From the NCBI GenBank assembly GCA_022826185.1, contig JAJDVH010000061.1, positions 1 through 39,333 on the forward strand: 39,333 nucleotides of DNA, read 5' to 3'. The translations under genes and the position numbers were made by a program. Shown here piece after piece: positions 3,650 to 6,884 of this stretch (position 1 is its first letter; the number at the start of each line of letters is the position of its first letter). The stretch is from Alphaproteobacteria bacterium. Lineage in GTDB: Bacteria > Pseudomonadota > Alphaproteobacteria > Bin95. The notes below the pieces were generated by a model. It did no database searches, had not been told where the DNA came from, and saw nothing but the letters and a program-made list of their open reading frames with translations.

Positions 3650-5296
3650 CTACTCCCGGATCGCCTCGGTGACGGAGAGCGTGCTGCCGAAGGACGGGAT
3701 GACGCAGGAGTGGCGTCCCGCCCCGCCGGCGACCATGACCATGAGTTGTTCCCGCTCGCTGACGATGCGCACGCCGTCCCTGCCGTCCGGGCCGACGAAA
3801 CGCTCCGGCACCTGCTGGCCGTAAAGCGCCATCTGCGCCTTGCCGATATGCCAGCGCGGGATGATCGCGCGCTCGATGATGAATCGCTCCACATCCTCCT
3901 TCGACCAGCCTTCGCGCGCGATCACCTCGGCATGTTCCGGGCCGATCACCACCAGATATTCGCCGTGGAAATAGGAGTTGTTGCAGCCGGGCGTCGCCAT
4001 GGTGCCGCAGATCGTCAGCAGAACGTCTTCGGCCGTTTCGCTGTAATGGTCGTTGACATTGTGCGGCCCTTCGACGCCGCAAAGCGTGACGGCATTCTGC
4101 TCCGCGCCGAAGCCGCGTTCCGTGTGGAAGGCGGCCCAGGGATTGGCCTCGCCGTTCTCCGCGAAGCAGTAGCTGTATTTGGCGGGCGTGCCCATCGTCG
4201 CGCGGTCGAGCACGCCGGGCTGCGCGCCGCCGATATTGGTCAGCACCAGGCGGACCGCGCGCCCGATCGCGGCATTGGCGTGGACGCCCTGGCCCATGCA
4301 GTTGGTGCCCGACGCGATATCGAGCTCTTCTGCTATCGGCCCGTGCACGACGGTCAGCAGGCCGCAGGGATGGGTCGTGGACTGGAGCGCCTTCAGGTTC
4401 AGCCGCTCGGCGGTCATGGCCCGCGTCGCGGCGAGGATGACCGGCATCATCGCCGGCACCGCCCCGGCCATAACGGCGTTGGCGGCGACCTTGCCGACCG
4501 TCGCAAGGCCGAGGCGCGGCTCGATAAGCCCGATTTCCTCATCGGGGTCGCGCCCGCCCAGCATGGCGTCCCAGCGGTCGGGCGTCGGCGGAACGAAAGG
4601 CAGGCCGTCGGTCCAGCCGCGCTGGTAGAAAACGCGGTTCAGCGCCTCCGGTGAGTCGGGACCGGAAATCCGCTCCGGCGCGCCGGGCGCGTTGAAGTCG
4701 CCCTCGAACAGCGAGCGGTAGCGCATCCGGCCCCGCTTCGGCAGGGGGCGGTTGCGGCATTCCTCCGCGAGCGCCGCCGCGTCCGCCTCCAGCATGTGGA
4801 CGATCTGGTCTATCGCCTCGTCGGCGATCTCCGAAACGCCGGGGGGCGGCAGCTTCGCCACCGGATGCGGCACGACCGCAATCGGCAGGCCCGCCATGCC
4901 GAGGCATTCGGCCTCCGCCTTGCCGAGAGCGAAGAATTCGTCCGTGCAGGTGACCGCTACCGGAATGCCGCGCTCTTCAAGCTTGATCGCGTCATGGATA
5001 CACCACGACGTGCAGGAGCCTCAGTCCCCGAAAGCGGCGGCCACGGCGTGGACCCGGTCGAGCCAGTGCTGCGAGAAATTGGCGGGCTCGCTCGCGATCT
5101 TCTGGAAGAGCTCGAACTCCAGATGCGGGTAGCGCGCCTTCAGCCGGTGCGACACCTCTTCCAGGTAAAGGTCTGCATTCGCCTTGAGATTGGAGAACAG
5201 GCCAACGGTCTTGACGTCCTCCAGCGAGCGCCGCGGCGCCAGCGCGCCGCTATTGCGCTGGTAGATGCCGCAGGGATTGATAAGCTCCTGTGCCAT
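3650..5296 (-). CDS. UGSC-family selenoprotein (in-frame TGA at 5023-5021 read as Sec92), with long C-terminal domain
   Basis: Read from the ATG at 5296, the frame runs MAQELINPCGIYQRN to an in-frame TGA at codon 92 and then continues without interruption to the stop at 3650, giving 548 residues. Around the TGA the protein reads AAAFGD-U-GSCTSWCIHDAI, exactly the U-G-S-C motif that names the UGSC family of (seleno)proteins. Coding character and homology-like content continue on both sides of the TGA, which a pseudogene with a random nonsense mutation need not preserve at precisely this residue. Residues 1-140 form the UGSC domain (Sec92, Cys95, Cys99). Residues of about 215-548 form a second domain I do not recognise, with GWTDGLPFVPPT (about 227-238), THPCG (Cys311) and GTNCMGQG (Cys333). 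The role is presumed to be thiol/selenol redox chemistry, but the substrate is unknown. A conventional gene call would start at 4897 and lose the N-terminus. The gene is divergent from two SDRs (40 bp) and convergent with the flavin oxidoreductase. No sel genes are in the window. Confidence 0.88.
4990..5020 (-). promoter_or_regulatory. Bacterial SECIS-like hairpin directly downstream of the selenocysteine codon
   Basis: On the minus strand, 10 nt after the TGA (5023-5021), the segment CGTCGTGG (5010-5003) pairs over 8 bp, including one G-U, with CCATGACG (4997-4990) around the 5-nt loop TGTAT (5002-4998). The loop starts 18 nt after the TGA and carries G in its second position. Bacterial SECIS elements recognised by SelB lie within the coding region just after the UGA, with an apical loop roughly 16-37 nt downstream and a conserved G in its first two positions, so this hairpin fits. 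Base pairing was found by eye; folding energy was not computed. Confidence 0.7.
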
Positions 5297-5336: not shown

Positions 5337-6095
5337 ATGGGACGCCTGGAAGGCAAGATTGCGATCATTACCGGCGCCGGGTCCGGGATCGCCAGGGCAG
5401 CCACCGGAATCTTCATTCGCGAGGGCGCGAAGGTGATGGTGGCGGAGATCGACGAAGCGGCGGGCGCTGCGGCGGCGGCGGACACAGGAGCCGCATTTCA
5501 CCGCACCGACGTGACCGACGATTCCTCGGCGGCGGCCTGCGCGGCGGCGGCGATGGCCGAGTTCGGGCGCATCGACATCCTGTTCAACTGCGCCGGCGGG
5601 TCGGTGATCGAGGACACGGCGATCCACGACGTCGATCTCGGTGTCTGGGACCGCACCATCCCGCTCGACCTCAAGGGCCCGATGCTGATGTGCCGCCATG
5701 TCGTGCCGCACATGATCGCGGGCGGCGGCGGCGCCGTCGTCAATGTCTCTTCCGTCGTGGCGCTGCGCGGCAACCATCCGGCGCATATCTATTCCGCTGC
5801 GAAGGGCGGACTGATCTCGTTCACGCGCTCGCTCGCCGGCTCCTATTCGGACCAGGGCGTGCGCGCCAATGTGATCTGCCCCGGCCTCATCCTGACCGAG
5901 CGCGTCCGCGCCCGCTACCGCCAGCCGAACGAGGAGCGCCCGCGCGAAGGCTCGATCGGCACCTTCGAGAAATATCCGTTCGGCGTCGGCCAGCCCGAGG
6001 ACATCGCCAATATCGCGCTCTTCCTCGCATCGGACGAGGCGCGCATGGTGAACGGCGCGGTCATTCCGGGAGAAGGCGGCATCTCCGCCTATTGA
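5337..6095 (+). CDS. SDR family oxidoreductase (first copy of a tandem pair)
   Basis: A 252-residue short-chain dehydrogenase/reductase. It has the Rossmann nucleotide motif TGAGSGIA near residue 12, the structural NCAGG motif, a conserved VSSV segment, and the catalytic YSAAK. The acidic residues after the second strand (VAEIDE) suggest NAD+ preference. The likely reaction is NAD-dependent oxidation or reduction of an alcohol or ketone; the substrate is unknown. The ATG at 5337 has GGAGG about 9 bases upstream; an upstream open stretch from 5265 overlaps the selenoprotein start and is not needed. It is followed after 30 bp by a paralogue of about 80% identity and is divergent from the selenoprotein gene. 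Confidence 0.93.
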   Translation: MGRLEGKIAIITGAGSGIARAATGIFIREGAKVMVAEIDEAAGAAAAADTGAAFHRTDVTDDSSAAACAAAAMAEFGRIDILFNCAGGSVIEDTAIHDVDLGVWDRTIPLDLKGPMLMCRHVVPHMIAGGGGAVVNVSSVVALRGNHPAHIYSAAKGGLISFTRSLAGSYSDQGVRANVICPGLILTERVRARYRQPNEERPREGSIGTFEKYPFGVGQPEDIANIALFLASDEARMVNGAVIPGEGGISAY

Positions 6096-6125: not shown

Positions 6126-6884
6126 ATGGGACGGCTCGAAGGCAAGATCGCGGTGATTACCGGGACTGGAACCGGAATCGCCAGGGCGGCCACCGGAATC
6201 TTCATTCGCGAGGGCGCGAAGGTGATGGCGGCGGAGATCGACGAGGCGTCGGGCGCTGCAACGGCAGCCGAGACCGGCGCGGTCTTTCATCGCACCGACG
6301 TGACCGACGACGCTTCCGCAGCCGCCTGTGCGGCGGCGGCGATGGCCGAGTTCGGGCGCATCGACATCCTGTTCAACTGCGCCGGCGGATCGGTCCCCGA
6401 GGACACGAAGATCCATGAGGTCGATCTCGAAGTCTGGGACCGCACGATCCCGCTCGATCTCAAGGGCCCGATGCTGATGTGCCGCCATGTGGTGCCGCAC
6501 ATGATCGCGGGCGGCGGCGGGGCGGTCATCAACATCTCCTCGGTCGCGGCCCTGCGCGGTTTCGTGCCCAGCCATGTCTATTCGGCGGCGAAGGGCGGGC
6601 TGATCTCCTTCACCCGCTCGCTCGCCGGCTCCTATTCCGACCAGGGCGTGCGCGCCAATGTCATCTGCCCCGGGCTCATCCTGACCGAGCGCATCCTTGC
6701 GCGCTATCCGGGGCCCGGCGGGGAGCGCCCGAAGGAAGGGCCCTTCGCGGTTTTCGAGAGCTATCCGTTCAGCATCGGCCCGCCGGAGGACATTGCGAAT
6801 ATCGGGCTCTTCCTGGCCTCGGACGAATCCCGCATGGTCAATGGCGCGGTCATCCCGGCGGAAGGCGGCGTCTCCCACTACTGA
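6126..6884 (+). CDS. SDR family oxidoreductase (second copy of a tandem pair)
   Basis: A 252-residue paralogue of the preceding gene, the same length and aligning without gaps at about 80% identity. It keeps the cofactor loop (TGTGTGIA), NCAGG, the ISS segment and the catalytic YSAAK. The differences cluster in the substrate-binding region around residues 190-215 (ARYPGPGGERPKEGPF against ARYRQPNEERPREGSI) and after the catalytic serine, as expected if the copies act on related but different substrates. Both probably share one transcript (30 bp apart). The ATG at 6126 matches the start of copy one; a GTG at 6117 is an alternative. The 3' end overlaps the convergent transporter gene by 7 bp. 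Confidence 0.93.
   Translation: MGRLEGKIAVITGTGTGIARAATGIFIREGAKVMAAEIDEASGAATAAETGAVFHRTDVTDDASAAACAAAAMAEFGRIDILFNCAGGSVPEDTKIHEVDLEVWDRTIPLDLKGPMLMCRHVVPHMIAGGGGAVINISSVAALRGFVPSHVYSAAKGGLISFTRSLAGSYSDQGVRANVICPGLILTERILARYPGPGGERPKEGPFAVFESYPFSIGPPEDIANIGLFLASDESRMVNGAVIPAEGGVSHY

Follow-up and report, generated by a model that had tools for sequence, protein, structure and literature searches.

An in-frame UGA predicted to encode selenocysteine in an alphaproteobacterial UGSC-family gene, and a suggested distant kinship of the family to GrdB-type selenoproteins

A gene on the minus strand at positions 3650–5296 of the window, the 39,333-nucleotide stretch of alphaproteobacterial DNA analyzed here, is predicted to encode a full-length UGSC-domain selenoprotein of 548 codons in which the UGA at 5021–5023 is read as selenocysteine (Sec) at codon 92, and we put the probability of this reading at roughly 93%. 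Six independent lines of sequence evidence, namely matches to the family models, the Sec machinery of the genome, the presence of one TGA in each of its six UGSC loci, the co-occurrence of selB with the TGA form (p=5e-33), the alternation of Sec with Cys and purifying selection, indicate that the TGA is a Sec codon, in agreement with an earlier note made from these letters alone. A conserved downstream hairpin adds to them. That note had taken two minus-strand open frames (5296–5024 and 5020–3650) for one frame split by the TGA at 5023–5021; all of these coordinates proved right, and the TGA is the sole stop before the terminal TAG. Translating it as U yields 548 residues, and the FGD-U-GSCTSWC stretch with its U-G-S-C signature lies at residue 92 as had been proposed, in the context AAAFGD-U-GSCTSWCIHDA. 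The start codon, ATG 5296, is common to close homologues (MARELINPCG, MATELMNPCG). A standard gene caller would begin at ATG 4897 (3650–4897, minus strand), and the resulting product of 415 amino acids, as against 548, lacks the 133 N-terminal residues that the note said would be lost. The window gene is confirmed as one that standard annotation truncates, as is the case for a relative on a plasmid of Acidovorax sp. T1 (NZ_CP021650.1). There, the coding sequence WP_087748617.1 (L098, 5956–6246) stops exactly at the Sec UGA (6244–6246), and no coding sequence is listed for the rest of the UGSC fusion.

The gene clearly belongs to a known, functionally unexplained selenoprotein family. Its product matches the UGSC models of both NCBIfam (NF041046; 129 bits, cut-off 125) and Pfam (PF24696; 143.4 bits, cut-off 25). 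In its passages on the family, the GOS survey of 2008 named a 'UGSC-containing' family, reported the fusion of UGSC with a domain called 'Unknown_1' and supposed a thioredoxin (Trx)-like fold (PMC2398784). Set against the family as those passages and the two models present it, the window protein is alike in profile, U-G-S-C motif, Sec/Cys alternation, SECIS element and fusion to an unnamed domain, and differs in its individual sequence and genome only. What is new is that the C-terminal domain is fused to, or encoded beside, nearly every UGSC that was examined, and that the UGSC domain, modelled as flavodoxin-like, is suggested to be a distant relative of GrdB-type selenoproteins, with Sec aligned on Sec. 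A conserved partner domain together with distant GrdB kinship makes the function of the family testable, so that a widespread orphan selenoprotein family gains a biochemical hypothesis, as well as a defined partner domain still without a name in Pfam or NCBIfam.

Alignment of the homologues at residue 92 showed Sec, encoded by TGA, or Cys. The TGA is retained in all seven of the closest public copies (93–98% protein identity), and Cys (TGC or TGT) occupies the site in the motif-bearing homologues that lack TGA, examples of which are found at class loci L090–L093, in Pseudonocardia, Embleya and Variovorax, and in the haloarchaea Natrinema and Halalkalicoccus. The motif, with Sec or Cys as its first residue, was thus found among the homologues with the exception of one degenerate Ser copy. 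This is a UGSC-like copy from Chloroflexi (L038, 4001–5617) in which Ser occupies the Sec site and the motif has decayed. It lies between two TGA-form copies and is possibly a degenerate or repurposed paralogue. The stretch at 5023–4898, between the UGA and ATG 4897, aligns in every full-length homologue and, as the earlier note had supposed, is protein-like: over residues 93–133, each of the seven relatives differs from the window gene by 4–10 synonymous and 0 non-synonymous changes. Upstream of the TGA, pN/pS is likewise low in these relatives (0.00–0.19), and the sequences point to purifying selection before as well as after the UGA. Relatives were also sought among viral contigs and none was found.

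Bacterial SECIS elements are hairpins immediately 3' of the UGA with a small apical loop containing a G (PMC1088965), and the window sequence has such a structure at 4990–5010 (minus strand). An 8-bp hairpin, CGUCGUGG-UGUAU-CCAUGACG, begins 10 nt past the UGA codon, its 5' arm lying at 5010–5003, its loop at 5002–4998 and its 3' arm at 4997–4990; the loop is 5 nt long with G in second place, and 18 nt separate the UGA from the apical loop. We stacked 63 distinct UGSC sequences at the UGA and compared their pairing with 1000 draws of random synonymous codons. Standard pairs made up 78% over the eight positions compared with 61.3±1.9% in the null (z 8.8; 0 of 1000 draws as high), and the proportion was at most 53% when the arms were slid and at most 65% when the whole hairpin was shifted along the gene. 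Two-sided changes were seen at the loop-closing pair (51 C-G, 9 G-C) and at the pair next to it (44 G-C, 16 A-U), with some of them arising through amino-acid changes. The single-sequence fold gave z=−2.5, and the Dehalococcoidia subset was not clearly above the synonymous null (0.617 vs 0.571±0.025). Taken as a whole, the alignment indicates a bacterial-type SECIS hairpin that is conserved at a single fixed distance from the UGA with compensatory changes, and this hairpin would steer SelB and Sec-tRNA-Sec to read the UGA at 5023–5021 as selenocysteine.

The machinery for such decoding is present in the window genome (4.48 Mb, completeness 100), where a search for selA, selB, selC and selD, as the earlier note had suggested, found all four. 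A tRNA-Sec with a UCA anticodon was detected, selB (434.7 bits, cut-off 242) lies on contig 232 with selA adjoining it, and selD is also present. The selD match (C206:968–1852, L018) sits in a 748-aa open frame that probably joins an oxidoreductase to SelD, like the fusions reported from marine bacteria. The same genome carries six UGSC loci with exactly one in-frame TGA in each. The five outside the window (C206:18386, C243:9087, C192:22138, C20:23732 and C219:365; L021, L022 and L024–L026 of genome G000) have the partner domain in a neighbouring gene in most cases, and L026 is a fusion. Across 385 genomes of the class, UGSC was found in 38, with one TGA in 97 of the 102 matches. selB was present in 34 of the 35 genomes with a TGA-form UGSC, compared with 21 of the 350 others (Fisher p=4.6e-33), and the lone exception, G011, is 77% complete. 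The tRNA-Sec gave the same picture (33 of 35 TGA-form genomes).

The fold of the UGSC domain (residues 5–170; 4787–5284, minus strand) was considered in an AlphaFold model built from 24 homologues (mean pLDDT 87.5). Strands and helices of the modelled N-terminal domain alternate in the manner of flavodoxin and PurE, with Sec92 opening the helix after strand 3, and the structures it matches, with middling Z scores near 9, are of the flavodoxin-like, PurE and Rossmann types. Searches of solved structures by sequence, using the protein and three profiles, returned nothing significant. The Pfam GRDB model (PF07355) did not match the window protein at E≤1, and with the limit relaxed to E≤10 it found none of the 31 UGSC domains searched; the GrdB link consequently rests on a GRDB-like alignment of three sequences (two selenoproteins and one Cys protein) and on profile comparison. 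With hhalign, the UGSC and GRDB-like profiles aligned Sec on Sec with P=1.9e-6; the value was 1e-5 with the Sec column masked and 2e-5 when the column of the resolving Cys was masked as well, compared with 0.13 or worse in 60 column-shuffled controls. A GRDB-like selenoprotein also matched PF24696 directly (E=0.0022). These comparisons suggest that the Sec region of UGSC is a distant homologue of that of GrdB/PrdB. UGSC shares with GrdB/PrdB a strand that ends in the Sec-containing U-x-x-C motif and leads into a helix and then a GIPT-type strand. However, the partner domain is a different one and, unlike GrdB/PrdB, UGSC is found for the most part next to oxygenases and in genomes that gave no GRDB matches, which is not obviously an anaerobic Stickland setting. 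When full-length GrdB was sought in the class and in the phylum, short GRDB-like proteins were all that turned up. Those from related Alphaproteobacteria (L087:1420–2325, L088:1122–1900 and L089:1099–2004) include two with an in-frame TGA (VPV-U-PVC and LPV-U-PNC) and one with Cys, and the TGA-bearing ones resemble selenoproteins whose genes, too, would be split by gene callers.

The fold and the profile similarity also bear on the supposition made in the GOS survey's account of the family (PMC2398784), under which UGSC would be a thioredoxin-like thiol-disulfide oxidoreductase or peroxidase-type redox protein using U-x-x-C as its redox pair. On such a reading the partner domain would be a mere client. 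The UxxC motif itself favours this. However, Sec follows strand 1 in the thioredoxin fold and strand 3 in our model (pLDDT 87.5), the N-terminal fold matches listed belong to flavodoxin-like, PurE and Rossmann-type proteins, and the profile similarity goes to GRDB-like proteins. The model does not support a Trx-like fold for the Sec domain, and we regard a thioredoxin-like function as rather unlikely, although it is the strongest of the competing explanations.

The second element of the GrdB-like reading is the C-terminal partner domain, which in the window protein spans residues 204–548 (3653–4687, minus strand). No Pfam or NCBIfam model matched this domain in any member tried. It is present in the fused UGSC homologues and, where UGSC is free-standing, an adjacent gene encodes it in 28 of 29 class loci (L058–L086), each fetched with about 1.5 kb of flanking sequence. 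We infer, from the GOS survey's passages on the fusion, that it corresponds to 'Unknown_1' (PMC2398784). In plasmids of Natrinema and Halalkalicoccus (L096 and L097), a Cys-form UGSC gene is directly followed by a partner gene labelled 'hypothetical protein'. The domain is predicted with a pLDDT of 93.2 and has a putative pocket with the conserved residues R346, N354 and E380. A fold search with it gave no confident structural neighbour, the weak matches being fumarate hydratase (E=2.8e-4 at rmsd 17.5) and chorismate-mutase-like chains (best VIA Z 6.4).

GrdB/PrdB proteins, whose UxxC-type motif works with thioredoxin-linked partners (PMC13188914), have relatives implicated in cleavage of even the C–F bond of fluoroacetate (PMC10838667). 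By analogy with these distant homologues, Sec92, which the model places at a helix N-terminus within the flavodoxin-like domain, may attack a bond of a small organic substrate as a nucleophile and cleave it reductively; C95 of the U-x-x-C motif would resolve the Sec adduct or a selenenylsulfide, with the Sec centre then re-reduced by a thiol donor such as thioredoxin. We hold this sequence of steps tentatively, at a little short of even odds. The C-terminal domain, whether fused or encoded next door, would most likely bind or activate the substrate. Somewhat more tentative still is the wider proposal that UGSC and its partner constitute an unrecognized class of two-component, GrdB-like, Sec-dependent reductases that cleave small organic compounds, rather than a thioredoxin-like redox protein, and that their hosts are bacteria in which the catabolic neighbourhood is rich in oxygenases, while haloarchaea carry Cys versions. 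Of 30 UGSC loci, 3 have trxB-like genes nearby (Variovorax, Dehalococcoidia L041 and, at the locus edge, Paracoccus), and we treat these neighbours as a lead only.

The genes around the window locus, among them a pair of short-chain dehydrogenases/reductases (SDR), Rieske oxygenase subunits, a luciferase-like monooxygenase (LLM) and an RraA-like protein, suggest the catabolism of a small organic compound. They also bear on the decoding of the UGA. TGA ends the Rieske, LLM, SDR and RraA genes in the window, ruling out a genome-wide reassignment of this codon. A plain ORF caller does give two ORFs at the UGSC locus, as it would if the TGA were a true stop, a recent nonsense mutation or a sequencing error, leaving two products or a pseudogene. 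This is very improbable, given that the TGA is held in many species with Cys as the only alternate, that purifying selection spans the junction, and that there is a SECIS hairpin, selB co-occurrence and six such genes in one genome. We reject a stop codon, frameshift or pseudogene on the strength of the TGA conservation and the selection. Equally remote is the insertion of Trp or Cys by ordinary suppression, despite Cys being the alternative residue among homologues, since the Sec machinery is present and co-occurs with the TGA form, the hairpin is there, and neighbouring genes use TGA as an ordinary stop.

The UGSC gene is divergent from an SDR (5337–6095, plus strand; PF13561/PF00106) whose start lies about 40 bp from its own, and a divergent SDR of similar kind adjoins the UGSC gene in L027. 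Across UGSC loci, SDR genes alone recur widely, which carries little meaning because such genes are too common. In the window, the SDR genes at 5337–6095 and 6129–6884 stand in tandem beside the UGSC gene and are very similar, apparently the result of a duplication.
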